In this document: piece after piece, positions 26,294 to 41,424 of the stretch | Layout: each line of letters begins with the position of its first letter | Numbering within the stretch: position 1 is the stretch's first letter | Assembly: GCF_013387455.1 (NCBI RefSeq) | Contig: NZ_VWNC01000001.1 | Span: 248,001 to 312,000 of the forward strand | DNA: 64,000 bases | Direction: 5' to 3' | DNA from: Mariprofundus sp. NF | GTDB taxonomy: Bacteria; Pseudomonadota; Zetaproteobacteria; Mariprofundales; Mariprofundaceae | Program-made: the position numbers and the translations under genes | Notes under the pieces: model-generated | The model's database searches: none | What the model was told of the DNA's origin: nothing | What the model saw: only the letters and a program-made list of their open reading frames with translations

Positions 26294-26515
26294 TGTTTCA
26301 CCTCCGTTATTAGTAGGGCGGCGAAACCTAGTCGTTGATGGAAAAAGGGCAAACAGGATTAAAATTAAAGTCCGCGTAGAAATTGACGATATATGCCTGA
26401 CGCAATTGATTATCTATTATCAAAACCAGAAATGAACTTAGTTTGTAAATGGCTATTTCACGGCGTGGTTGGCTCATGTTTTGCTTAGGGCTGTTTGTCT
26501 GGGGGAAATGAATTT

Positions 26516-27070
26516 ATGTTAAAAAAATTAGAAGATCGATCGGCGCTTGAAGCTGCGTTTGAAAGCAGTCTGTGGAACTCCCGCTGGGCAGTTCTTGTTG
26601 CCGTAATCAGTAGTGTTATCGCTGCGCTGCTGATGTTTTACATCGCCGGTGTTGATACCTTTTATACGATAGAGCATCTGGCCAGCTATGCCGCGAATGA
26701 TGATTATGGTGAACGTGGTGAGATCAGAGCTGAAGCTGTTGCCCAGGTGGTAGAGATTATTGATATCTTTCTGCTAGCGATTGTGTTGCTGATCTTCGGG
26801 TTGGGTCTTTACGAGCTCTACATCAGTAAAATCCATCATGCCTATGAAGATGGCAATGACGCTTCAGACCATCTCCTCTCTATTGACAGTCTGGATGATC
26901 TGAAGTCACGCCTGGGTAAGGTGATTATGATGATCCTGATCGTGAAGTTCTTCGAGCTGGCGATCGGTATGGAGGTTGATGATACCACGGCCCTGTTGAT
27001 GTTTGCTGGTGGCGTGTTGATGAGTGCTGCAGCGCTGGTGCTGACAGAGATGGCAACCCGCAGTAAGTAG
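26516..27070 (+). CDS. UPF0114 (YqhA-like) membrane protein, copy 1
   Basis: A 184-residue inner-membrane protein with three or four transmembrane helices and the family segments ESSLWNSRWAVLVAV, IIDIFLLAIVLLIFGLGLYE and DLKSRLGKVIMMILIVKFFE. I start at ATG 26516 with a GGGGG site upstream, not TTG 26495. Function is unknown. A close paralogue follows 98 bases later, so this is a tandem duplication. Confidence 0.88.
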   Translation: MLKKLEDRSALEAAFESSLWNSRWAVLVAVISSVIAALLMFYIAGVDTFYTIEHLASYAANDDYGERGEIRAEAVAQVVEIIDIFLLAIVLLIFGLGLYELYISKIHHAYEDGNDASDHLLSIDSLDDLKSRLGKVIMMILIVKFFELAIGMEVDDTTALLMFAGGVLMSAAALVLTEMATRSK

Positions 27071-27168: not shown

Positions 27169-27813
27169 ATGGAAACACCTAAAAAATCAGCATTCTCAAA
27201 CGGCTTTGAACAGGTCTTATGGACATCCCGATGGGCGGTACTTCTCGCTGTGGTATGTAGTATTGGCGCTGCAATGATTATGTTTTATATCTCGGCAGTT
27301 GATACCTTTTATGCGGTAGATATGCTGAAAGAGTATTATCTGCTGGACTCTCCTGAGGCTCGAGGGGTGATGCGAGCAGAGGCAGTTGGTATGGTGGTCA
27401 AGGTGATCGATATCTTCCTACTGGCGATTGTATTGATGATTTTTGGCTTGGGCATGTATGAGCTCTACATTAGTAAGATTGACCATGCTTATGGAGAACA
27501 TGATACATCAGCTGAGCATATGCTTTCGGTGAATAATCTGGATGATCTGAAATCGCGCCTTGGTAAAGTGATTATGATGGTGCTGATTGTGAAGTTTTTC
27601 GAGATGGCGATTGGTATGGAGATTGATGGCATCAAGGATCTGATGATCTTCTCTGCAGGTATCCTGCTTATTGGTACAACGCTGTATGTGACTGAACGTG
27701 CTTCACGTAAAAAAGGTGAGTGGAAAACCCGCGCATCTGATCGCAGCGGTGTGCCTGACAAGCGTCGCGTAGAAGGCGGCGGTGGCGGCAGCAGGGAAGA
27801 TCGCCGCTCTTAG
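27169..27813 (+). CDS. UPF0114 (YqhA-like) membrane protein, copy 2, with Arg/Gly-rich tail
   Basis: A 214-residue paralogue of the preceding protein. It shares the SRWAVLLAV, DIFLLAIVLMIFGLGMYE and DLKSRLGKVIMMVLIVKFFE blocks almost exactly. It differs by a roughly 35-residue hydrophilic C-terminal extension rich in Arg, Gly and Ser (RRVEGGGGGSREDRRS) that copy 1 lacks. The tail is probably disordered and cytoplasmic. A strong terminator follows. Confidence 0.88.
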   Translation: METPKKSAFSNGFEQVLWTSRWAVLLAVVCSIGAAMIMFYISAVDTFYAVDMLKEYYLLDSPEARGVMRAEAVGMVVKVIDIFLLAIVLMIFGLGMYELYISKIDHAYGEHDTSAEHMLSVNNLDDLKSRLGKVIMMVLIVKFFEMAIGMEIDGIKDLMIFSAGILLIGTTLYVTERASRKKGEWKTRASDRSGVPDKRRVEGGGGGSREDRRS

Positions 27814-29236: not shown

Positions 29237-29258
29237 TCGCCGCTACATATTTTGATCC

Positions 29259-29395
29259 GGCTTTATCCAGAGCGGTGGAGGGTTACAGGCCCTGTGAAAC
29301 TGCGGCAACCGGCCAAGAGATATCTTTGATAACTTTTGGAGAATGGTGCCAATGCCTGCCCGATGTGAGTAATCACGGAGGGAGCGATGATGGCG
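29259..29395 (+). promoter_or_regulatory. SAM-I (S-box) riboswitch aptamer
   Basis: The sequence follows the S-box consensus in order: TTATCCAGAGCGGTGGAGGG, a short P2 loop, GGCCCTGTGAAACTGCGGCAAC, then GGTGCCAATGCCTGCC, and GGAGGGAGCGATGATGG closing helix P1. S-box RNAs bind S-adenosylmethionine and usually end transcription when SAM is abundant. A hairpin (29408-29414/29419-29425) and a terminator stem follow, completing an expression platform. It sits 106 bases before the threonine-synthase-family start codon, so the genes downstream should be switched on by methionine/SAM shortage. I could not run a covariance search. Confidence 0.88.
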
Positions 29396-29434
29396 GGTTG
29401 TTCGTAAAGGGCATTCCTATGCCCTATGCATGAC

Positions 29435-29464
29435 AACCTTCGCATCTATCGCGGAGGTTTTTTT
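29435..29464 (+). terminator. Riboswitch-controlled intrinsic terminator
   Basis: Stem 29435-29443 with 29451-29459 (nine pairs including one G-U), loop ATCTATC, followed by seven T. It lies between the SAM aptamer and the ribosome site ACGGAGT near 29488. Confidence 0.8.
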
Positions 29465-29500
29465 ATTTCTGGATGCGCCTGAAAAAACGGAGTATCTATA

Positions 29501-30751
29501 ATGAGTGAAAGTATCGTTCGAGCGTTGAAATGTCGTGAATGCGGGCAGGAGTATCCGATTGAGCCTACGCATGTATGCGAGTTCTGCTTTGGCCCGCTTG
29601 AAGTGGCCTACGATTATCACAAGCTGGAGGGTAAATTTACCCGTGAGCTGATCGAGTCTCGTCCGCAGACCATGTGGCGCTATAAAGAGCTGCTGCCGAT
29701 TGATGGTGAGCCAACTGTCGGTGCACAAAATGGTTTTACACCGCTTGTTCGTGCAAAGCGTCTTGAAAAAGTGCTTGGTGTTAAAGAGCTCTATATCAAG
29801 AACGATTCAGTCTGCTATCCAACCCTCTCCTTTAAAGATCGCGTGGTTTCCGTGGCCCTCTCCAAAGCTGTTGAGTTTGGTTTTACCACAGTGGCCTGTG
29901 CCTCTACCGGCAACTTGGCCGGTTCGGTTGCCGCTAATGCGGCCGCAGCAGGGTTGGAGTCCTACGTATTTATTCCACATGATCTGGAGCAGGGCAAGGT
30001 GCTCGGTGCGGGTATCTTCGGCACCAATATCATTGGCATCAAAGGTAAATATGACGATGTGAATCGTCTCTGTTCTGAAGTGGCCGGCAAATATGGCTGG
30101 GCCTTTGTGAATGTGAATGTGCGTCCGTTTTATGCTGAAGGCTCCAAGTCGCTGGCTTATGAGGTGATGGAGCAGCTGGGCTGGAAAGCACCGAAACATG
30201 TGGTTGTGCCGATGGCATCCGGTTCGCTCTGCACCAAGGTGGATAAGGCGATCAAGGAGTTCATCAAGCTTGGTCTGATCGAAGACAATGGCACCGCGGT
30301 CTATGGTGCGCAGGCGACAGGCTGCTCACCGATCTCCAAATCTGTGAAAGATGGAACCGATATGATCCATCCTGTGCATGCCGATACGATCGCCAAATCA
30401 CTGGCTATCGGTAACCCTGCTGACGGCTTCTACGCTAATCGCGTTATTAATGAGTCTGGCGGCTGGGCTGAAGATATCTCTGATGAAGAGGTGGTGGCTG
30501 CCATGAAGCTGCTGGCTGAGACTGAAGGCATCTTTGCCGAAACTGCAGGCGGTGTAACGCTGGGCTGTGCAATGAAGATGATTGAGTCCGGAAAATTGCC
30601 TCGCGATGAGTCCATTGTACTCTGCATTACAGGCAACGGCCTGAAGACTCAGGAAGCGATAGTGGATGCGATCACCAAACCGCGTATTATCAACGCCAGT
30701 TTAAAAGAGTTTGATCTGTTGGCGGAAGCTGACGGCGTGGCTGACGCATAA
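29501..30751 (+). CDS. thrC: Threonine synthase family PLP enzyme under SAM riboswitch
   Basis: A 416-residue fold-type II PLP enzyme. An N-terminal zinc ribbon CRECGQEYP...HVCEFCFGPLE (9-32) precedes the catalytic domain; the PLP lysine is in YPTLSFKDRVVSVAL near 109, and phosphate-binding ASTGNLAGSVAA near 138. These match threonine synthases, which turn O-phosphohomoserine into threonine. However, it is the first gene after a SAM-I riboswitch and directly precedes a sulfur-carrier gene and a NIL-domain gene, a context of methionine rather than threonine synthesis. It may be a true ThrC whose expression affects the homoserine branch point, or a paralogue that adds sulfur to phosphohomoserine to make homocysteine. 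Sequence alone does not separate these. Confidence 0.85.
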   Translation: MSESIVRALKCRECGQEYPIEPTHVCEFCFGPLEVAYDYHKLEGKFTRELIESRPQTMWRYKELLPIDGEPTVGAQNGFTPLVRAKRLEKVLGVKELYIKNDSVCYPTLSFKDRVVSVALSKAVEFGFTTVACASTGNLAGSVAANAAAAGLESYVFIPHDLEQGKVLGAGIFGTNIIGIKGKYDDVNRLCSEVAGKYGWAFVNVNVRPFYAEGSKSLAYEVMEQLGWKAPKHVVVPMASGSLCTKVDKAIKEFIKLGLIEDNGTAVYGAQATGCSPISKSVKDGTDMIHPVHADTIAKSLAIGNPADGFYANRVINESGGWAEDISDEEVVAAMKLLAETEGIFAETAGGVTLGCAMKMIESGKLPRDESIVLCITGNGLKTQEAIVDAITKPRIINASLKEFDLLAEADGVADA

Positions 30752-30786: not shown

Positions 30787-31065
30787 ATGAGTGTATCTGT
30801 ACGTATTCCAACCCCGCTGCGTAAGCTGACTGCTGGCGCTGATGAAGTGACCGTCGATGGCGCAACTGTCGGTGATGTGATTGAAAGCCTCGAGGCTGCA
30901 CATCCCGGCCTGAAAGAGCGCCTGTGTGATGATGCCGGTGAAATCCGCCGCTTTGTAAATGTTTATGTGAACGACGAAGATGTTCGTTTTCTTGAAGGTC
31001 GCGCTACTGCTCTGAAAGATGGTGATGAGCTCTCCATCGTTCCGGCCATTGCAGGCGGCTGCTAA
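30787..31065 (+). CDS. ThiS/MoaD/CysO-type sulfur carrier protein ending Gly-Gly-Cys
   Basis: A 92-residue ubiquitin-like sulfur carrier: [20 protein letters not shown] start, [33 protein letters not shown] and the tail [15 protein letters not shown]. Carriers of this group are adenylated and thiocarboxylated on a terminal Gly-Gly. Here one extra residue, Cys, follows Gly-Gly, so either it is trimmed by a protease (as HcyS-Ala is by HcyD in Wolinella) or the Cys has a role of its own. AGGAGAG precedes ATG 30787. The adenylyltransferase is encoded at 32458-33279 and the sulfide source at 33383-35725 in the same island. The next gene starts directly after the stop. Confidence 0.9.
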
Positions 31066-31305
31066 ATGAAATTCCGTGTTTATCTGACCTTTGACGAGGC
31101 GACCGTTCGTGCTCCGATTATCTGGCAGCTGGGCAAAGAGTTTGATCTGATTACCAATATCCGCACGGCTGAGGTGAGGGATCATATGGGTCTTGTCGGC
31201 CTTGAGCTTGAAGGCAACAACGATGTGATCGATGCCGCGGTGAAGTGGCTGGGTGAGCAGGGTGTTCAGGTTGACCCGATTGAACAGAGCATCATAGAGG
31301 GCTAG
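31066..31305 (+). CDS. NIL-domain protein
   Basis: A 79-residue stand-alone NIL domain (KFRVYLTFDEATVRAPIIWQ, then the DHMGLVGLELEG motif near 45). NIL domains occur at the C-terminus of the methionine transporter ATPase MetN, where they sense methionine, and in ferredoxin fusions linked to homocysteine synthesis. The stop of the sulfur-carrier gene directly abuts its ATG, so the pair is coupled. A small ligand-sensing or partner role in sulfur transfer is likely. Confidence 0.88.
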   Translation: MKFRVYLTFDEATVRAPIIWQLGKEFDLITNIRTAEVRDHMGLVGLELEGNNDVIDAAVKWLGEQGVQVDPIEQSIIEG

Positions 31306-31423: not shown

Positions 31424-32356
31424 ATGGCAATTTTTAATAATGCTGCAGAAGCAATTGGTAATACCCCGCTGGTTCGTCTGAACCGGATCGGTGCTGATAG
31501 TGGTGCTGAAATTGTGGCCAAGCTGGAGTTTTTTAATCCGCTGAATTCGGTGAAAGATCGTATTGGTAAAGCGATGATCGAAGCGGCCGAGGCTGATGGA
31601 CGCCTTAAAGCCGGTGGTCTGATTGTTGAGCCGACCAGTGGCAATACCGGTATTGCTCTGGCCTTTGTGGCTCGTGCCAAGGGTTACCGCTGTATCCTGA
31701 CGATGCCTGAGTCGATGAGTCTGGAGCGCCGTAAGCTTCTTAAGCTACTGGGTGCCGAGCTTGTGCTTACGCCTGCAGAGAAGGGCATGAAGGGTGCAAT
31801 TGCCAAGGCTGAAGAGATTGCCTCGACTACTGAAGGCGCATTCCTGCCTCAGCAGTTTGAAAACCCTGCCAACCCTGAGATTCACCGCAAAACCACGGCT
31901 CAGGAGATCTGGTCTGACTGTGATGGCAACGTTGATGCGATTGTTGCAGGCGTCGGCACCGGCGGCACGATCACCGGAGTTGCAGAGGTGCTCAAGCAGC
32001 GCAATCCGAATTTTAAGGCAATTGCCGTTGAGCCTGCTGATTCACCCGTGATTTCAGGTGAAGCGCCCGGCCCTCATAAAATTCAGGGTATCGGCGCAGG
32101 TTTTATTCCGAAGAACCTGAACGTCGATATTATTGATGGTATTGAGAAGGTCACCAATGATGAGGCCTTCGAGATGGCTCGCCGTCTTGCTGCTGAAGAG
32201 GGTATTCCCGGTGGCATCTCATCCGGTGCAGCCGTAATGGCTGCAGTACGTGTAGCCAGCAAGCCTGAGATGAAGGGTAAGCGTATCGTGGTAATTCTGC
32301 CATCCATGGCTGAGCGTTATATGTCCACCGACCTGTTCAAAGGCATCGAAGTTTGA
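31424..32356 (+). CDS. cysK: Cysteine synthase (O-acetylserine sulfhydrylase)
   Basis: A 310-residue PLP enzyme with PLP-lysine motif [16 protein letters not shown] (Lys near 44), [12 protein letters not shown] near 69, and [15 protein letters not shown] near 178. It makes cysteine from O-acetylserine and sulfide. Because a ThiS-like carrier and its adenylyltransferase flank it, a thiocarboxylate-using CysM role, as in Mycobacterium, is possible; length and motifs fit CysK or CysM. It is bounded on both sides by palindromic repeats within one co-directional gene series. Confidence 0.93.
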
Positions 32357-32457: not shown

Positions 32458-33279
32458 ATGATTGATTTTACAGAAGCACAGATCGAGCGCTATTCGCGCC
32501 ATATTATTTTGCCGGAAGTCGGTGCCGAGGGGCAGAGCAAGCTGCTTGAGTCCAAGGTGTTCATGATCGGTGCAGGTGGGCTGGGTTCGCCCGTCGCCTA
32601 TTATCTGGCTGCCGCCGGTGTCGGCACCATTGGTATCGCCGATGCTGACGTGGTGGATTCGTCCAACCTGCAGCGCCAGATTATTCATAATCAGGACCGC
32701 ATTGGCATGCCCAAGGTGGAGAGTGCGCGTGAGACAATGCAGGCGCTGAACCCGGATGTGAAGGTCAATACCTACAACTATTTTGTTACCGAAGATAATA
32801 TTCGCGACATTATTCGCGACTATGATCTGGTGATTGATGGCTGTGATAATTTCCCGACCCGTTTCCTGGTCAATGATGCCTGTTACATGGAGAAGATTCC
32901 GCTGATTTCCGGTGCAATGTTCCGCTTTGAAGGGCAGGTGGCGACATTCAAACCACATCAGGTGAAAGGCGCACCTTGCTATCGCTGCCTCTATCCTGAG
33001 CCACCACCGGCAGGTCTGGTTCCATCATGCTCCGAAGCGGGAATCTTAGGTGCCCTGGCCGGTGCTGTGGGCACCATTCAGGCCGTTGAAGCGGTGAAAG
33101 AGTTGCTTGGTATCGGCGATTCTCTGGCCGGTAAGCTGATGGTTTTCGATGCACTGCGTATGGAGTGGAAGAAGCTGAAGCTGCGTAAGGATCCGGGTTG
33201 CCCGCTATGCGGTGATAATCCAACCATTACAGAGCTGGCTACCTATGAGCAGGCTTGTGAATTGAAGTTTGGTGAGTAG
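32458..33279 (+). CDS. MoeB/ThiF/HesA-type adenylyltransferase for the sulfur carrier
   Basis: A 273-residue E1-like enzyme. Visible: the N-terminal IERYSRHIILPEVG, ATP-binding VFMIGAGGLGSPVAYYLAAA near 37-56, DGCDNFPTRFLVND, the Cys in APCYRCLYPEPPPAG, and the zinc-binding CYRC...CPLCG pair. It activates a carrier's C-terminal glycine as acyl-adenylate for sulfide transfer. The ThiS-like carrier two genes upstream is the obvious substrate; no moaA, moaC, moaE or thiazole genes are nearby, so molybdopterin or thiamine synthesis is a less likely sole role. There is no fused rhodanese domain. Confidence 0.92.
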   Translation: MIDFTEAQIERYSRHIILPEVGAEGQSKLLESKVFMIGAGGLGSPVAYYLAAAGVGTIGIADADVVDSSNLQRQIIHNQDRIGMPKVESARETMQALNPDVKVNTYNYFVTEDNIRDIIRDYDLVIDGCDNFPTRFLVNDACYMEKIPLISGAMFRFEGQVATFKPHQVKGAPCYRCLYPEPPPAGLVPSCSEAGILGALAGAVGTIQAVEAVKELLGIGDSLAGKLMVFDALRMEWKKLKLRKDPGCPLCGDNPTITELATYEQACELKFGE

Positions 33280-33382: not shown

Positions 33383-35725
33383 ATGACAGAATTTGATTTC
33401 GCACACACATCCGATGTCGATGAATTTGAGGCTGGTTACAAGGCGTTCAAAGAGGGGCGTATGTCCGAAGAGCGGTTTACACCGTTTCGTCTGCAGATGG
33501 GTGTTTACGGTCAGCGTCAGGAGGGTGTGCAGATGGTGCGGGCCAAACTGCCCGGTGGCTGCATTACAGCAGATCAGATGGATGTTATTGCCGAGTGCGT
33601 TGAGCTCTATGCCGGGCGTATGCCAACAGATGGCACGCTGACTGAGGCGCCTGAGAAGGTGGCGCATGTGACGACGCGTCAGGATATTCAGGCCAACTTC
33701 GTTGCGCTTGATGATGTGCCGGAATTTCTGCGCAAGCTTGATGCTGCAGGGATGACCACACGTGAGGCGTGCGGTAATACCGTACGCAATGTCACCACCT
33801 GTTTTCTGGCAGGTCGCTGCCCGGCTGAACATGCCGATGTGACCATTCATGCCCGTAAATTCGCAGAGTTCTATCTGCGTCATCCGCTGGGCCAGCAGTT
33901 TCCACGCAAATTCAAGGTGACCTTCTCCGGTTGCGCCAGCGATTGCGGTCTTTCAGGCATGCACGATGCCGGTTTTATTGCCACGCACAAAGATGGTAAA
34001 GCCGGTTTTCAGGTGTGGGCGGCCGGTGGTCTCTCATCCCAGCCTATGGGCGCACTGCTACTGGAAGAGTTTATCGAAGAGTCGGAGCTGTTTGTGGTCG
34101 GTGAAGCGTTGATGCGCATGCACTTTAAATACTCCGATCGCAAACGCCGTGCCCGTGCACGTTTGAAATATGTGGCCCAAAAACTTGGTGCAGAAGGTTT
34201 TGTCGAGGAGTACAGAAAACAGCGTGCAGTGATCGAGAAGACCCATGCTGATGATTCAGGTTATGCAGAGGCAAACTGGCGCACACCTACTGCAGCGATG
34301 CCATTTGCTGACTCAGGTGTGGTGGATCAGCACAATGGTAAATCCGCCATCCTGCTCAATCTGTTCCGTGGTGATCTGACACCGGATCAGTGCCGTGCCG
34401 TGGCCAATGCCGCACGCGCTGCCGCAACCGATGAGCTGCGTGTGACTACTGAGCAGGGCATGGTGCTCTGCGATGTTGATGCTGAAAATGTTGCTGCCGC
34501 AGTGGCTATTCTTAATACTGCAGGGTTGCAGACTGAGTATGCACGTGGCATCTCCGATGTTGTGGCGTGCCCCGGCACTGAGACCTGCCGTCTTGGTATC
34601 ACCTCAAGCCGCGGTCTTGCTGCAGCGCTGCAGCCGTTGATGGCCGATCTGAAGAAGGACACTGCGTTGGCCGGTATCACAGTTAAGGCATCCGGCTGCC
34701 AGCACTCCTGTGGTCGTCACCATATTGCTGATCTCGGTTTCCACGGCATGGCCAAGAAGGTGGCCGGTCAGGCTGTACCTCACTACCAGCTGCATGTGGG
34801 TGGTTCAGGCGTTGCCGGTTCTCCGTTGGCCTTTGCGACCGATCCTGTGCCGGCTAAATATGCACCGGAAGCGGGTATTGCTGTGCTGAATGCCTATAAA
34901 GCGGGCCGCAGTGGTGATGAAAGCATGCACGACTGGGCCACGCGCTTGGGCAAAGAGGGTATCTCAGAGATTCTGACGCCATTTAAGGCTGATGCCGGTG
35001 AAGTTGAAGGATTGATCTACGACTGGAGCGAGAACGAAGCATTTAATACCAAGGGCAACAAGAAGGGTGAGTGTGCCGGAGCGGTACTATCGATGTCTGA
35101 CGCGCTGATCTCTGAAGCCGAGTACGAGCTGTTGATTGCGCGTGCCCATCTTGACGCGATGTTCTGGGCGGAAGCGCTGACCGCGCTGCGTCGCTCCTCT
35201 ATCTCTGCAGCACGTGCTTATCTGGTGCCTTATGGTGAAGCACCTGAAGAGGATAGCGCTGTCTTTGGTCTGCTGGCGGCGAATGCTGCTGCGGATGCTG
35301 ATGTGATTGCCGGCCTCAATGCTGTGCAGTCGGCTCTGATGAATATCGATCTGGCTGATCCGGGTGCCGGGGTGACCAAGCTGAAAGAGGTGCAGAGCGC
35401 ATGGGTAGCACTGGCTGCTAAACGTTTTGCGGCCGTACCTGAAGCAGTAGAAGCGACTGCACAAGCTGAAACTTCAACCGAAACCTCTGCCGATGTTGTG
35501 CTGCTCGATCTCTCCGGTGTGGCATGTCCGATGAACTTTGTGAAAACCAAGATCAAGCTGACCATGATGCCTGTCGGCTCGCTGCTGGACGTGATTCTTG
35601 ATGATGGCGCACCGATTGAGAATGTTCCGCTCTCCCTTATTGAGCAGGGGCAGAAGATTCTCGCTAAAGAGCAGATCTCTGATACTCAGTGGAAAATCCG
35701 GGTAGAGAAGATCGGCAGCATCTAA
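33383..35725 (+). CDS. Sirohaem sulfite reductase fused to a C-terminal TusA domain
   Basis: A 780-residue fusion. Residues 1-560 form a nitrite/sulfite reductase: two ferredoxin-like half-domains and the sirohaem/4Fe-4S ligands Cys396-x5-Cys402 and Cys439-x3-Cys443. An approximately 100-residue helical segment of unknown type spans 580-690 and an Ala/Thr/Glu linker follows. The last 75 residues are a full TusA domain with active Cys715 in GVACPMNFVKTKIK. The reductase makes sulfide from sulfite with six electrons; the TusA domain could accept the product sulfur or link it to the thiocarboxylate system. Position before APS reductase and ATP sulfurylase genes supports assimilatory sulfite rather than nitrite reduction. 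The fusion is in one frame, without sign of a frameshift. Confidence 0.93.
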   Translation: MTEFDFAHTSDVDEFEAGYKAFKEGRMSEERFTPFRLQMGVYGQRQEGVQMVRAKLPGGCITADQMDVIAECVELYAGRMPTDGTLTEAPEKVAHVTTRQDIQANFVALDDVPEFLRKLDAAGMTTREACGNTVRNVTTCFLAGRCPAEHADVTIHARKFAEFYLRHPLGQQFPRKFKVTFSGCASDCGLSGMHDAGFIATHKDGKAGFQVWAAGGLSSQPMGALLLEEFIEESELFVVGEALMRMHFKYSDRKRRARARLKYVAQKLGAEGFVEEYRKQRAVIEKTHADDSGYAEANWRTPTAAMPFADSGVVDQHNGKSAILLNLFRGDLTPDQCRAVANAARAAATDELRVTTEQGMVLCDVDAENVAAAVAILNTAGLQTEYARGISDVVACPGTETCRLGITSSRGLAAALQPLMADLKKDTALAGITVKASGCQHSCGRHHIADLGFHGMAKKVAGQAVPHYQLHVGGSGVAGSPLAFATDPVPAKYAPEAGIAVLNAYKAGRSGDESMHDWATRLGKEGISEILTPFKADAGEVEGLIYDWSENEAFNTKGNKKGECAGAVLSMSDALISEAEYELLIARAHLDAMFWAEALTALRRSSISAARAYLVPYGEAPEEDSAVFGLLAANAAADADVIAGLNAVQSALMNIDLADPGAGVTKLKEVQSAWVALAAKRFAAVPEAVEATAQAETSTETSADVVLLDLSGVACPMNFVKTKIKLTMMPVGSLLDVILDDGAPIENVPLSLIEQGQKILAKEQISDTQWKIRVEKIGSI

Positions 35726-35745
35726 AAGTCGCGATAACTGATACG

Positions 35746-38379
35746 ATGACAACACTGAATCCATTTGCCAATCCGGGCCGCTGTAAGCTGGCGCTGGTAA
35801 GTCAGGGTGTCTCCCTGCCGGATGGTCTGCAGGGTGCCTCGCACTGGGTTGCGCAGGCCAATGCCACCGAATCAGTGATCGATATCAGGTTACCATCCGG
35901 CCATTTTGCTACGGTGCCTGTGGCCCAACCCTATACGAAGAGTAGTTCGATTCAGCTCAGGCAGCAGGATAGTGATGGCAATGCTTGTCTGCATTGGGGT
36001 GATGAAACGCTGGATGTGCAGCTTCTGCCTGCACCACGTTTTTACCGTAACAAAACACGCTCCGGTGCCCGCATGGGTAGCTTTGCCTCACTGCATGAGA
36101 ACCTGCTGATGCTGCACCCGATTATGGGCTGTGGTTTTTTTGCCGGGCAGAATCTGGCCTGTCACTACTGCCAGTATGATTCGATGCTTAATGAAGATGA
36201 GCCGCCGATGCGCGATCCGCTTGAGTTGGTGGAGGTGGTGCGTGCCGCGCTCTCAGAGCGTGAAATTGATACGGTCTATCTCTACAACGGTTTTGCACCG
36301 GGTGATGATGTAGGTCTGTCCAGATTGGTACCGGTCATTGCTCTGCTCAGGCGTCATCTTGGCCATCGACAGATTGCCCTGGAGACCGTTGCGCCGAAAG
36401 ACACCTCGGTAATTGATGCGCTCTATGCTGCTGGTCTGGATATTTTTGTCTGCAATCTGGAAGTGCACGATGCCGAGCGCTTTGCAGAGGTGTGTCCCGG
36501 CAAAGAGCAGGTGGGTGGTCAGGTAGCAATCTGGAAGGCACTGGACCATGCCCGTCAGGTATTTCGTGGCGGCGCAGTAGTGAGTCATCTGATTGTTGGT
36601 CTGGATGATGTGGAATCAACCAAGAAGGGCATCGATGCGCTGATCTCGCATGGCGTTGTGCCGCTGCTACAGCCGTTCAGGCCGCTGCCGGGAACTCCGC
36701 TGGAGGGGCAAGTTGGACCTTCACTGGAAGAGATGGAGGAGCTATTCCTGCACCTCTATGGTGCCATCAGTGCTGCAGGATTCTCGACACATCGGCTGCG
36801 CCATATGGGGCGTGTGTTAACGCCAATGGAGAGTCGTGTTCTTGATGGCCGAGAGGCGATGCTTAGTGAACGCTGGGTCTCCTCATCCATAGGGCGTCAC
36901 TGGGACGGCTGGATGGATGGCCTGCGCCGCCATCTGCGTGCCGGTCACGGCGAAGGTGATGAAACCCTTCTGGATCGCAGACCGATGCATGTGTTGCTGG
37001 CTGGCGAGGCGCTGCCTTTTGCCGCTCTGGTTGTGGTAGCACTGCTGGCCTTTGCTGCAGGAAACATGGATGCACCCCAAGGACTGAGTCAGCACGGCTG
37101 GAGCTCGTTGATTGTCTTTGCGCTGTGTCTGCTGCTATGGGTGACACAGCTGCTGCCGCTGGCGGTGACGTCACTGTTGGGGCTGGCGCTATTGCCTCTG
37201 CTGGGTGTGTTGCCGGCAACCAATGTCTTTGCTCTGTTTGGCAATCCGGCTGTGTTTTTCATTCTGGGCGCTTTTATGCTGGCGGCAGGAGCGATGCAGA
37301 GCGGCCTCTCTGAGCGCATGGCACTGCTGACCATCGATCGCTTTGGCACCAGTCCGCGCCGCTTGCTGCTGACGATGTTGCTGTTGCCTGCCTTTATGGC
37401 CTGTTTCATGCCTGAACATGCTGTGGCAGCGCTGTTTTTGCCGATAGCCTGGGAGATTGTGCGCAGCCTTGGACTTAAGGCGGGCAATGGTTATGCCCAG
37501 TCGATCTTTTTTGCACTGGCCTGGGGCGCGATCATTGGTGGTGTGATCACCCTGCTTGGTGGTGCCCGTGGGCCGCTGGCATTGGCGCTGACCGAAGAGC
37601 TGACCGGAGAAACCTTTTCGTTTGCAGACTGGACGCTGGCAGCAGCACCCATTGCACTTTCCGTGTTGTTTGTTTCAGCACTGGTTTTGATGCGCATTAC
37701 ACCTCTGGTTGGTATCGACATCTCATCTGCGCGCCAGCGCATCTCGTTGCGCAGGCTTGAGCTGGGTGATTTCGACATCAAATCGAAAGCGATGGCGGTT
37801 CTGCTTGTGGTTACCATGCTGGCCTGGATCTTAGCCGGGCACTCCAGTTCACTGGCTGGCATTGCTCTGATCAGCGTTGTATTCATGTTTGCCCTGCGTC
37901 TGGTGAGCTGGCGAGCGGTTGAGAAGCATGTCAACTGGGGCGTGGTATTGATGTACGGCGGTGCGATCGCCATTGGTAAAGCATTGACCGTGACCGGGGC
38001 AGGTATCTGGCTGGCGGCATCAATTTTCCCTGAAAGCGTAGCAGGACTGGCCCTGCTGGCCCTGCTGGCGCTGATCACGCTCTTTTTCACTGAAGGGGTC
38101 AGTAACGCGGCAGCTGTGGCCATTGTTCTGCCGGTAGCCATCCCCATTGCGGCCGCAGCTCAGATCGATCCTGTCACGGCGGCACTGGCTGTGGGCATTG
38201 TCTCCGGCTTTGCCTTTATGCTGCCGATGGGCACGCCGCCAAATGCGATGATTTTCGGTACAGGTTATGTGCGCGCTTCACATATGCTGCGTTACGGGGC
38301 ACTACTCTCCCTGGCAGCATTTGTACTATTTATGATCACAGTGTCGGTCTGGTGGCCTATGCTGGAAAGGATTGGGTAA
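35746..38379 (+). CDS. Radical SAM domain fused to DASS/SLC13-type anion transporter
   Basis: An 877-residue fusion. I start at ATG 35746, 20 bases after the reductase stop. Residues 1-400 contain a radical-SAM-like domain with Cys129-x9-Cys139-x2-Cys142 (in GCGFFAGQNLACHYC), a spacing unlike the canonical Cx3Cx2C, followed by ALETVAPKD, NLEVHDAERF and SHLIVGLDDVESTKKG, segments typical of radical-SAM barrels. Residues 425-877 are about 11-12 transmembrane helices of the divalent anion:sodium symporter family, with FGNPAVFFILGAFMLA and the C-terminal substrate motif GFAFMLPMGTPPNAMIF. Placed between sulfite reductase and APS reductase genes, the transporter half is most likely a sulfate permease. 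The job of a membrane-tethered radical-SAM domain is unknown. Confidence 0.88.
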   Translation: MTTLNPFANPGRCKLALVSQGVSLPDGLQGASHWVAQANATESVIDIRLPSGHFATVPVAQPYTKSSSIQLRQQDSDGNACLHWGDETLDVQLLPAPRFYRNKTRSGARMGSFASLHENLLMLHPIMGCGFFAGQNLACHYCQYDSMLNEDEPPMRDPLELVEVVRAALSEREIDTVYLYNGFAPGDDVGLSRLVPVIALLRRHLGHRQIALETVAPKDTSVIDALYAAGLDIFVCNLEVHDAERFAEVCPGKEQVGGQVAIWKALDHARQVFRGGAVVSHLIVGLDDVESTKKGIDALISHGVVPLLQPFRPLPGTPLEGQVGPSLEEMEELFLHLYGAISAAGFSTHRLRHMGRVLTPMESRVLDGREAMLSERWVSSSIGRHWDGWMDGLRRHLRAGHGEGDETLLDRRPMHVLLAGEALPFAALVVVALLAFAAGNMDAPQGLSQHGWSSLIVFALCLLLWVTQLLPLAVTSLLGLALLPLLGVLPATNVFALFGNPAVFFILGAFMLAAGAMQSGLSERMALLTIDRFGTSPRRLLLTMLLLPAFMACFMPEHAVAALFLPIAWEIVRSLGLKAGNGYAQSIFFALAWGAIIGGVITLLGGARGPLALALTEELTGETFSFADWTLAAAPIALSVLFVSALVLMRITPLVGIDISSARQRISLRRLELGDFDIKSKAMAVLLVVTMLAWILAGHSSSLAGIALISVVFMFALRLVSWRAVEKHVNWGVVLMYGGAIAIGKALTVTGAGIWLAASIFPESVAGLALLALLALITLFFTEGVSNAAAVAIVLPVAIPIAAAAQIDPVTAALAVGIVSGFAFMLPMGTPPNAMIFGTGYVRASHMLRYGALLSLAAFVLFMITVSVWWPMLERIG

Positions 38380-38383
38380 CAAC

Positions 38384-39106
38384 ATGAGTGTTTTAGTTGA
38401 ACAGGCGGTAAGCCTGTTGAAACAGGCCAAAGAGGCCCATGGTGATGGTCTTGTCTACCCGTGTAGCATGGGTCTTGAAGGCTCAGTCATGGTGGATCTG
38501 ATCAGTAAATATGGGCTTGATATCCCTATCATGACACTTGATACCGGACGACTGCCGCAGGCGACCTATGATGTGATCAGTGCCTTTGAGGATCGTTACG
38601 GCATCCGTGTCAGGGTTCTGTTCCCCGATTGCCATGAAGTGGAAGCGATGGTTCGTGAAGATGGGGTAAATCTGTTTAGAAGGTCGCCGGAGCTTCGCAA
38701 GAAGTGCTGCGATATTCGTAAACTACGGCCATTGATGCGGGCACTGGAAGGCAAACAGGCGTGGATCACCGGCAGGCGTCGCCAGCAGTCAAAGGGGCGC
38801 TCTGATCTGCAGTCGATAGAGATTGATGTGGTGTATGGCTTGAAAAAATATAATCCGCTGCTGGAGTGGAGCCTTGATGATGTGGAGGCGTATGTGCGTG
38901 AGAATGATCTGCCGTACAACAAACTTCACGATGCCCACTATCAATCCATTGGCTGTGAATGCTGCACCCGTGCGATTACGGTAGGTGAAGATGAACGGGC
39001 CGGTCGCTGGTGGTGGGAAAATAGTGATGTGGCGGCAGAGTGCGGCCTGCATGTTATGAGCATTAAACAGGTAACCGGCGACATTGAAGGCGGCGAAGGA
39101 ATTTAG
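38384..39106 (+). CDS. cysH: Assimilatory APS reductase (CysH family, 4Fe-4S type)
   Basis: A 240-residue thiol-dependent reductase turning adenylyl sulfate into sulfite. The 4Fe-4S ligands are present as Cys108-Cys109 (RKKCCDIRK) and Cys191-x2-Cys194 (GCECCTRA), which marks the APS-using type rather than the PAPS type. PP-loop-like CSMGLEGSVMVDLI is near 27-40, and TLDTGRLPQATYD follows. The C-terminal catalytic cysteine motif (ECGLH) is present near 226. Start ATG 38384 is chosen over TTG 38372. No APS kinase (cysC) gene is present, which fits. Confidence 0.94.
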   Translation: MSVLVEQAVSLLKQAKEAHGDGLVYPCSMGLEGSVMVDLISKYGLDIPIMTLDTGRLPQATYDVISAFEDRYGIRVRVLFPDCHEVEAMVREDGVNLFRRSPELRKKCCDIRKLRPLMRALEGKQAWITGRRRQQSKGRSDLQSIEIDVVYGLKKYNPLLEWSLDDVEAYVRENDLPYNKLHDAHYQSIGCECCTRAITVGEDERAGRWWWENSDVAAECGLHVMSIKQVTGDIEGGEGI

Positions 39107-39115
39107 GAGAAAGAG

Positions 39116-40039
39116 ATGTCTGAAAGCAATATATCAGAACATAAACTGACACAGCTCAAGGCGCTGGAGGCGGAGTCGATTCATATCATCCGCGAAGTGG
39201 TGGCGGAGTTCCGTAATCCCGTGATGCTCTATTCGGTGGGTAAGGATTCCAGTGTGATGTTGCATCTGGCGCGTAAGGCTTTTTACCCTGCGCCGTTGCC
39301 TTTTTCGCTGCTGCATGTGGATACCGGTTATAAGTTCAAAGAGATGTACGAGTTTCGTGACAGCTACTGTAAAGAGGTTGGTGCGGATCTGATTGTGCGT
39401 CGTAACGAGGATGCCATTGCCAGGGGTATGAATCCGAAAGAACATGGTGTGGCTCGTTGCTGTGGTGCGTTGAAGACCAAGGGTCTGTTGGATGCGCTGG
39501 AAGAGGGCGAATATGATGCGGCCTTCGGTGGTGCGCGTCGTGATGAAGAGCGAAGCCGAGCCAAGGAACGTGTTTTCTCCATGCGTGATGAGTTCGGTCA
39601 GTGGGATCCTAAGAATCAGCGGCCTGAGTTGTGGAGTCTCTATAATGGCAAGATCCATGATGGTGAATCGGTGCGTGTATTTCCGATCTCCAACTGGACT
39701 GAGATGGATGTATGGCTCTATATCCGCGAAGAGAAGATTCCGATTGTGCCACTCTACTTCGCCAAAGAGCGGTTGATGGTGGAACGCAAAGATTTTCTCA
39801 TTCCCTATTATGAAGAGACCAAAGACCAGCTACTTGAAGGCGAAGAGCCTACTATGGTGATGAGTCGTTTCCGTACCCTGGGTTGCGGGCCTTGTACGGG
39901 AGCTGTGCGCTCGGATGCTACCAATATGGATGAGATTGTGATTGAAGCTGCTGCGGCACGTCGTTCGGAACGTGAAACGCGCATCATCGATCACGGTTCG
40001 AATTCGATGGAAGACAAAAAGAAAGAAGGCTATTTCTAG
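39116..40039 (+). CDS. cysD: Sulfate adenylyltransferase small subunit
   Basis: A 307-residue CysD, which with the GTPase CysN makes adenylyl sulfate from ATP and sulfate. The PP-loop is [20 protein letters not shown] near 34-53; [16 protein letters not shown] and [12 protein letters not shown] are family hallmarks, and the C-terminus with [12 protein letters not shown] is typical. AGGAGAAAGAG precedes ATG 39116. It is separated from cysN by a palindromic repeat rather than the usual direct abutment. Confidence 0.97.
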
Positions 40040-40140: not shown

Positions 40141-41424
40141 ATGACTAAATTGAATATTAAGATGACTAAGGAGATCGAGCTGCTGCGACTGGTGACAGTG
40201 GGCAGTGTGGACGATGGTAAATCGACATTGATCGGTCGTCTTCTCGTTGATACCAAGGGTGCATTCGAGGATCAGCTTCTGGCCGTACGCAAGAAGAAAG
40301 GCACGGTGCATATCGCTTCGGCTGCCGAGATTGATCTGGCCATGCTGACCGATGGCCTCTCCGCTGAGCGTGAGCAGGGCATCACCATTGATGTGGCTTA
40401 CCGCTATTTTGCTACGCCAAAACGCAAGTTCATCATGGCTGATTGTCCCGGGCATGAGCAGTACACCCGCAATATGGTGACCGGTGCCTCCACCGCCAGT
40501 GCGGCGATTATTCTGATTGATGCACGTAACGGTGTGATGCCGCAGACCAAACGTCATACCCATATTCTGGGACTGCTTAACATCCCTCACCTGATTGTAG
40601 CGATAAACAAGATGGATCTGGTTGGCCACGATCAGGCAACCTATGAGAAGATTCGTGAAGATATGCAGGCCTACTGCGCCAAGCAGGGTGTGAAAGATCT
40701 GATCTGCCTGCCGATGTCGGCACTTGATGGTGATATGGTTGCCGTTCGCGGTAAGAATCTGGACTGGTATAAAGGCAAAACACTGCTGGAGACACTGGAG
40801 ACACTGCCTGCGCTGGGTGATATCGATAACAAGCCGTTCCGTATGCCTGTGCAGTTGGTGAATCGTCCACAGACCGCAGATCTTCCTGATTACCGTGGCT
40901 TTATGGGCACGATTGCTTCAGGTACGGTTAAAGTCGGTGACCAGATCGTATCTGTACCGAGCGGTAACACTTCAACAGTCAAAGAGATTGTCACTTTCGA
41001 TGGTAATCTGGATGAAGCATTCGCACCGCAGAGTGTGACGTTGACGCTCAATGATGAGATCGATATCTCACGTGGAGATATGATCACCCATGTCGATGAC
41101 AAGGCGATGGATGCCAAAGAGCTGACTGCCAATATCTGCTGGATTGGCGATGAGCCGTTGACCGAACGTCAGAAGTACATCGTTAAACATACCACCAATA
41201 GTGTCAAAGCGATGGTGGCCAGTATCGATTTCAAGACCGACATTCATACGCTGGATCATCAAGAGGATGCAACAGAGCTGGCCATGAACGAGATAGGCCA
41301 GATCACTCTGAAGCTGATGAAACCACTACACTATGATACCTATGCTGAGAATCGCACGACCGGCAGCTTTATCCTGATTGATACCTTTACCAACAATACC
41401 GTTGGTGCAGGTATGATTATTTGA
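40141..41424 (+). CDS. cysN: Sulfate adenylyltransferase large subunit (GTPase)
   Basis: A 427-residue elongation-factor-like GTPase driving sulfate activation. G1 is GSVDDGKSTLIG near 21-32, G3 DCPGHEQY near 101 and G4 NKMD near 156. It ends after domain III (IDTFTNNTVGAGMII) and lacks the fused APS kinase found in CysNC, matching the APS reductase type here. Last gene of the sulfur island, followed by a clear terminator. Confidence 0.96.
   Translation: MTKLNIKMTKEIELLRLVTVGSVDDGKSTLIGRLLVDTKGAFEDQLLAVRKKKGTVHIASAAEIDLAMLTDGLSAEREQGITIDVAYRYFATPKRKFIMADCPGHEQYTRNMVTGASTASAAIILIDARNGVMPQTKRHTHILGLLNIPHLIVAINKMDLVGHDQATYEKIREDMQAYCAKQGVKDLICLPMSALDGDMVAVRGKNLDWYKGKTLLETLETLPALGDIDNKPFRMPVQLVNRPQTADLPDYRGFMGTIASGTVKVGDQIVSVPSGNTSTVKEIVTFDGNLDEAFAPQSVTLTLNDEIDISRGDMITHVDDKAMDAKELTANICWIGDEPLTERQKYIVKHTTNSVKAMVASIDFKTDIHTLDHQEDATELAMNEIGQITLKLMKPLHYDTYAENRTTGSFILIDTFTNNTVGAGMII

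Follow-up and report, generated by a model that had tools for sequence, protein, structure and literature searches.

When the entire window (the whole 64,000-nucleotide stretch of DNA analysed here) was scanned with cmscan, the sole Rfam match above the gathering threshold was to the SAM-I (S-box) family, RF00162, which matched over its full model at 29260-29393 on the plus strand (59.6 bits versus a gathering cut-off of 44.4; E 2.7e-11). A SAM-I riboswitch had been claimed for 29259-29464 in the earlier note, and the significant covariance-model match, the check proposed there, upholds that claim. No other SAM-I was found in a genome-wide search of this Mariprofundus-like genome. The leader comprised the following features:

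29254..29259, + strand: 5' strand (GATCCG) of an extended P1, paired with 29394-29399 in the fold
29260..29393, + strand: SAM-I aptamer (RF00162)
29394..29401, + strand: putative switching strand, which would belong to the extended P1 when SAM is bound and form the antiterminator with 29433-29438 when SAM is absent
about 29408..29425, + strand: hairpin separating both antiterminator arms in the fold
29435..29464, + strand: intrinsic terminator and T-run (stem 29435-29459, 9 bp)

The hairpin and terminator that had been read after the aptamer were thus both recovered. Folding of 29394-29470 gave a z of -3.7, and when 50 zetaproteobacterial leaders were aligned, the terminator was 97.6% paired, with covariation at 5 of its 9 pairs, a level reached by 0 of 500 shuffles. 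The antiterminator, GGUUG(U):(A)CAACC, which competes with the terminator, was 91% paired in the same 50 leaders and showed both-sided changes at 3 of 6 pairs. For the extended P1 (GAUCCG:CGGGUU), 89.5% of cells were paired and covariation support was absent among these 50 leaders; the overlap of antiterminator and P1 is a structural prediction. Antiterminator and terminator are mutually exclusive, as in a SAM-I expression platform, and the combination of aptamer, hairpin, terminator and competing antiterminator suggests a leader laid out as a SAM-off transcriptional switch, in which SAM would be bound by the aptamer. With SAM plentiful, the aptamer would hold P1, the antiterminator would be blocked and transcription would end before thrC2. 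Aberrant platforms were noted in two leaders, one lacking the usual GGGTTG arm (L050:2650-2854) and one with antiterminator and terminator arms changed together (L054:5801-5984). The riboswitch is genuine and ordinary in kind, resembling other RF00162 members in its aptamer and terminator/antiterminator platform. The novelty is the controlled gene, since, unlike described SAM-I elements, this one precedes no described methionine gene but a threonine synthase paralogue, ThrC2, together with a MoaD-like protein. The genes downstream of the leader were:

29501..30751, + strand: ThrC2, 416 aa, fold-type-II PLP enzyme with a zinc-ribbon N-terminus; probable homocysteine synthase
30787..31065, + strand: MoaD/ThiS-like sulfur carrier, 92 aa, ending AIAGG-C (PF02597, 66.5 bits; SAMP1 model NF041918, 73.6 bits)
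31066..31305, + strand: NIL domain on its own, 79 aa, of the kind that MetN carries at its C-terminus (PF09383, 44.2 bits; partial match to a MetN model)
31424..32356, + strand: CysK, cysteine synthase A (TIGR01139, 459.7 bits)
32458..33279, + strand: MoeB/ThiF-type E1-like activating enzyme (PF00899, 278.5 bits)
33383..35725, + strand: sulfite-reductase-type protein with a fused C-terminal TusA domain (PF01077, PF03460, PF01206)
35746..38379, + strand: radical-SAM domain fused to a DASS anion transporter (NF045502, TIGR00785; search begun at 35743)
38372..39106, + strand: CysH-like PAPS/APS reductase (ORF named by eye; start codon uncertain)
39116..40039, + strand: CysD-like sulfate adenylyltransferase subunit (ORF named by eye)
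40141..41424, + strand: CysN-like sulfate adenylyltransferase subunit (ORF named by eye)

Shared strand and spacing suggest that a single transcript runs from ThrC2 through the CysN-like ORF. The anion transporter of the radical-SAM fusion is of the sulfate type. NCBIfam labels the carrier 'ubiquitin-like small modifier protein 1' (NF041918, 73.6 versus 60 bits), which is probably misleading in the context of this operon.

A ThrC-family gene had been seen behind the aptamer, and the product of the ORF at 29501-30751 did pass the NCBIfam thrC model TIGR00260 (262 versus 167 bits); it missed the closer model PRK08197 (274 versus 303 bits) and scored 65.9 bits with the cysteate synthase model TIGR03844 (cut-off 324.9). 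Threonine synthase models were matched by 22 of 22 ThrC2 proteins tested. A search for a second thrC beside hom, also proposed in the earlier note, located the canonical copy (ThrC1) directly behind hom on a different contig; ThrC1 is 33% identical to ThrC2 and its score with the thrC model (309 bits) is higher. A second ThrC homologue was present in 54 of 57 genomes (52 long matches and two cut or partial) and was not found in G003, G040 and G070. The earlier note had left two readings open, namely that SAM tunes the use of phosphohomoserine by a threonine synthase or that the enzyme functions as something other than a threonine synthase; the evidence, including the canonical thrC behind hom, favours the second.

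Differences between ThrC2 and canonical ThrC were evident from phylogeny and from active-site residues, both compared with one noise row (L165) left out. Thus, all ThrC2 rows, including that of Nonomuraea, formed a single clade with support of 100/100 in a tree for which the tool warned of long branches. Both canonical ThrC types kept the motifs N-S-x-N-x-x-R and G-N-x-G-N in the alignment, the ThrC2 counterparts being N-x-N-x-R-P-[FY]-Y (R-A-F-Y in L081) and A-[SG]-G-S, and [ST]TGNL in ThrC2 compared with canonical STGNT/STGDT. The canonical S, R and GNxGN positions were replaced in 23 of 23 ThrC2 rows (our own and those of 22 loci) and kept in both canonical subfamilies (12 other rows and our own ThrC1). 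The corresponding residues of Thermus ThrC (N154, S155, R160 and N188) are those that hold the substrate phosphate. Replacement of these canonical residues speaks against ordinary threonine synthesis by ThrC2, and for the same reason its substrate may differ from O-phosphohomoserine. R208 and Y211, invariant in ThrC2 and new relative to canonical ThrC, could form a substitute phosphate site. An AlphaFold model built with a 22-row alignment (pLDDT 86.7; used in place of a single-sequence model with pLDDT 36) was closest to solved threonine synthases (2c2b_A; VIA Z 43.0, rmsd 2.2, 377 aligned). ThrC2 thus has the profile and predicted fold of a threonine synthase, and the fold search speaks for this fold only, without placing the substrate. 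ThrC2 probably has a function other than threonine synthesis. Haloarchaeal and Chloroflexota plasmid ThrCs (L168, L169), which were considered as ThrC2, were rejected since ThrC2 motifs and a MoaD match were both absent. Residues 10-34 of ThrC2 (29528-29602), in the zinc-ribbon end, matched Pfam NinF (PF05810; 42 versus 27.5 bits), a family named after a phage protein.

Conservation of the locus was followed in a genome collection through the best 80 of 212 loci (66-99% identity), 51 of them in zetaproteobacteria and the other 29 in MAGs with the labels Deltaproteobacteria, Thermodesulfobacteriota, Planctomycetota, Brocadiaceae, Verrucomicrobiaceae and Dadabacteria, among others. A MoaD-like gene followed ThrC2 in 77 of these best 80 loci (50/51 zetaproteobacterial and 27/29 other), and in the three MoaD-less loci the sequence ended 0, 237 and 1307 nt past ThrC2. 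Among the same best 80, SAM-I preceded ThrC2 in all 50 readable zetaproteobacterial loci (49 by motif and L040 by Rfam; upstream DNA is missing from the 51st, L066), and an Rfam SAM-I lay upstream in 21 of the 29 other loci, including L058 and L074, where it precedes a CysK-like gene followed by ThrC2. One SAM-I each was present in 38 of 41 zetaproteobacterial genomes, and none was found in the remaining three (G032, G034 and G037). The same succession of SAM-I (68.7 bits), ThrC2 (55% identical) and carrier (56% identical) occurred in the actinomycete Nonomuraea gerenzanensis. In L068, L072 and L073 the recognised parts were limited to SAM-I, ThrC2 and MoaD. A MetH-sized gene adjoined ThrC2-MoaD in L062 and L082, and a MetH activation domain adjoined ThrC2 in L057, L062 and L082 by genome coordinates, the L062 gene having been recognised by Pfam. 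Nearly all carriers among the best 80 of 212 loci ended in AIAGG followed by zero to a few unconserved residues (AIACGN in one zetaproteobacterium), as expected if trimming of the carrier precedes activation of its glycine. A candidate for the trimming enzyme, a JAMM protease, exceeded the cut-off in 54 of 57 genomes; its gene lay inside the ThrC2 cluster in 13 of 29 non-zetaproteobacterial and 0 of 51 zetaproteobacterial loci of the best 80, and our own copy (PF14464) is at G000:C1:387480-387830, outside the operon. The NIL domain between carrier and cysK could be a methionine-sensing subunit; among the best 80 loci it occurred in 50 of the 51 from zetaproteobacteria and in 16 of the remaining 29. 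Radical-SAM/DASS-like matches were noted in most zetaproteobacterial loci long enough to reach that position, the two parts matching as separate pieces in L067.

Routes to homocysteine were searched for in 56 genomes (27 zetaproteobacteria and 29 others). Because 53 of the 56 passed the Pfam cut-off for PF01053 (MetY/MetB), mostly through short matches of 47 bits or less, cut-off counts were misleading and only long matches were counted (at least 360 bits in this search); similarly, the NCBIfam cut-off for MetX, 500 bits, was reached by no genome, controls included, so near-full-length matches of at least 463 bits were taken. By these measures, full-length PF01053 was present in 14 genomes (10 zetaproteobacteria and 4 others), MetA in 10 (the same 10 zetaproteobacteria), MetX in 3 (three of the four others) and DUF39 (PF01837) in none of the 56, a set that excludes our own genome. 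Since every MetA and MetX fell within the 14 genomes with PF01053, 42 of 56 (17 zetaproteobacteria and 25 others) were left without any route searched for, with the limitation that most are MAGs, in which absences may be assembly gaps, and that the 29 others come without completeness figures. ThrC2 was found in 41 of these 42 genomes and is partial in G034. A MetH activation domain was found in 16 of the 17 route-less zetaproteobacteria, including the isolate M. erugo P3, and in 6 of the 25 route-less others, 19 of which had no match to this domain, the one methionine-synthase feature that the search covered.

A different picture emerged from proteobacteria belonging to other classes (kinship stated as 'same phylum'), 19 of 20 of which had full-length PF01053 (at least 209 bits). 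The exception was G041, which is 98% complete. By the same threshold, full-length PF01053 was present in 3 and absent in 10 of 13 further zetaproteobacteria, giving 13 of 40 zetaproteobacteria besides our own. It was absent from G001, whose DNA matched that of M. erugo P3 exactly in the stretches that were compared, and MetY was present in G002 (M. ferrooxydans PV-1), G010 and G020. Our own genome carries metA-metY, unlinked to the ThrC2 operon, so that a ThrC2 route would be redundant there; no Rfam riboswitch was found at metA-metY or at hom-thrC1. All four non-zetaproteobacterial loci with MetY/MetB in the genome fell among the eight of 29 without SAM-I (Fisher p 0.003, with shared ancestry ignored). 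The usual S-box target was seen in two proteobacteria of other classes, namely G056, in which a single ORF separates SAM-I from a full-length PF01053 gene downstream, and G057, in which the gene after SAM-I resembles metX by eye. In the zetaproteobacterium G032 (95% complete), none of SAM-I, ThrC2, MetY, MetA or a MetH activation domain was found, and this organism is perhaps a methionine auxotroph.

Threonine synthase, by loss of phosphate at C-gamma, forms a beta,gamma-unsaturated intermediate, and addition of a sulfur nucleophile to C-gamma of such an intermediate would give homocysteine. Taken with the gene content of the operon and its genomic distribution, this suggests that ThrC2 makes homocysteine with sulfur from the small carrier protein. 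We consider it likely that the SAM-I element exerts feedback control over an operon for sulfur assimilation and homocysteine synthesis, and that ThrC2, a threonine synthase paralogue turned homocysteine synthase, uses the carrier thiocarboxylate, probably on O-phosphohomoserine. The carrier would be adenylylated by MoeB, and its C-terminal glycine would take up sulfur as thiocarboxylate, the source probably being the sulfite reductase/TusA protein; MoeB and TusA could thus supply activation and sulfur, and the CysK of the zetaproteobacterial operon could also be a carrier partner. The leaving group of an activated homoserine on the PLP of ThrC2 would then depart, and sulfur from the thiocarboxylate would add at C-gamma of the bound intermediate. 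With neither MetA nor MetX in 42 genomes and a second ThrC in nearly all, O-phosphohomoserine from the threonine branch would be the likeliest activated homoserine; the absence of MetA and MetX constrains the identity of the substrate and does not prove it. The JAMM protease encoded outside the operon would cut back the tail of the carrier and may thereby free homocysteine for use by MetH. The expectation in the earlier note that S-box RNAs precede methionine genes is kept on this account, because the gene behind the aptamer is most likely a methionine (homocysteine) gene itself and the riboswitch is not misplaced.

Three other explanations were weighed. It is unlikely that a homocysteine-forming ThrC2 takes its sulfur from free sulfide or persulfide, or that another substrate (homoserine or aspartate semialdehyde) stands in for O-phosphohomoserine, with the MoaD-like protein serving other thiolations. 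Replacement of the canonical phosphate ligands and the lack of both MetA and MetX in the 42 genomes would suit this explanation, but the carrier accompanies ThrC2 almost throughout the best 80 of 212 loci, across several phyla, and in some loci is its sole recognised partner. Distinctly improbable is the synthesis by ThrC2 of cysteine or another sulfur amino acid, either from O-phosphoserine, as by CysM with CysO, or as cysteate, with homocysteine supplied by an unrecognised enzyme. Cysteine-synthase and sulfate assimilation genes are indeed co-encoded, and cysteate synthases with the ThrC fold exist (TIGR03844 and NF053679; structure neighbour 9k3c); however, CysK/CysM-like genes are usually in the cluster already, the score with the cysteate model is far below cut-off, MetH adjoins ThrC2-MoaD in three loci and, without a PF01053 enzyme, ordinary transsulfuration from cysteine to homocysteine would be impossible. 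That the cell has in ThrC2 another genuine threonine synthase, with SAM setting how much phosphohomoserine goes to threonine and how much to methionine, is very improbable despite the model matches and predicted structure, given the other ThrC in 54 of 57 genomes, loss of canonical active-site residues in ThrC2 only, tight linkage to a sulfur carrier, the 41 genomes left without a recognised homocysteine route and the wrong sign of the feedback, since repression of a threonine enzyme by SAM would drive phosphohomoserine to methionine.

The preferred reading, of ThrC2 as a carrier-dependent homocysteine synthase, resembles known protein-thiocarboxylate pathways. In Wolinella succinogenes, a methionine pathway of this kind with HcyS, HcyF and HcyD was reportedly described by Krishnamoorthy and Begley in 2011. 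As in that pathway, a di-glycine, ThiS/MoaD-like carrier (PF02597), an E1-like enzyme (PF00899), TusA/SirA and sulfite reductase are encoded in one sulfur operon, a JAMM protease (PF14464) is present and the product would be homocysteine. Unlike the HcyS pathway, the sulfur acceptor in the operon is a ThrC-family protein rather than the O-acetylhomoserine sulfhydrylase MetY, which is unlinked here or was not found elsewhere; MetA, MetX and MetY are absent from most genomes searched and control is by SAM-I. Mycobacterium tuberculosis synthesises cysteine with CysO, CysM and Mec, that is, with a di-glycine carrier, a fold-type-II PLP enzyme and a JAMM protease. The ThrC2 system has these same three components, the likeness extending in L058, L064, L074 and L081 to clusters that hold CysK/CysM-like genes and JAMM, but an enzyme of the ThrC family and control by SAM both suggest homocysteine rather than cysteine as the product. 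From its gene content, the ThrC2 system would be a new variant among HcyS/CysO-type pathways. ThrC2 is also like the cysteate synthases of TIGR03844 and CapA (NF053679), relatives of ThrC in which a sulfur nucleophile is presumably joined to an amino acid, but differs in its low score with the TIGR03844 model.

The HcyS/HcyF/HcyD-type pathway is named in Price et al. 2018 (PMC5764234), according to which at least one homocysteine pathway is undiscovered, in autotrophs without the traditional, DUF39 or thiocarboxylate routes. With the DUF39/NIL-ferredoxin/COG2122 pathway of that account the present system shares a NIL protein and an occurrence where classical enzymes are missing, but DUF39 itself was absent from the 56 genomes and NIL is present here as a bare domain of 79 aa. 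In Iyer 2006 (PMC1779556), carrier/E1/SirA/sulfite-reductase operons contain O-acetylhomoserine sulfhydrylase, operon class 4e is of the HcyS type and the words 'threonine synthase' do not appear. A ThrC-family homocysteine synthase was not mentioned in the open-access papers (PMC) covered by the search.

There is about an even chance that an undescribed homocysteine pathway is at hand, in which a ThrC-family enzyme would perform gamma-replacement on O-phosphohomoserine by a protein thiocarboxylate. Methionine and threonine would then part at phosphohomoserine as in plants, but with carrier-bound sulfur, and this would be the sole homocysteine route in many zetaproteobacteria and in deltaproteobacterial and anammox-type lineages, everywhere annotated as threonine synthase, and would explain part of the autotrophs without a known pathway. 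Because ThrC2-MoaD stands under a SAM sensor in genomes from which every known enzyme searched for is missing, that of the isolate M. erugo P3 among them, ThrC2 could explain methionine synthesis in bacteria that lack the usual genes, and the question of the missing homocysteine pathway is now testable with two or three genes. If the reading is true, a widespread thrC annotation would be corrected and a case added in which a riboswitch reveals the function of an enzyme.

A possible counterpart appears in a Streptomyces microarray study (PMC2267785), in which SCO4293, a 'putative threonine synthase', and SCO4294 are placed among sulfate assimilation genes, with table values of 0.15 and 0.20, respectively; this pair may correspond to ThrC2 and carrier. 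Elsewhere in the window, tandem similar ORFs of 191 and 214 aa at 26495-27070 and 27169-27813, apparently membrane proteins by eye, look like a duplication.
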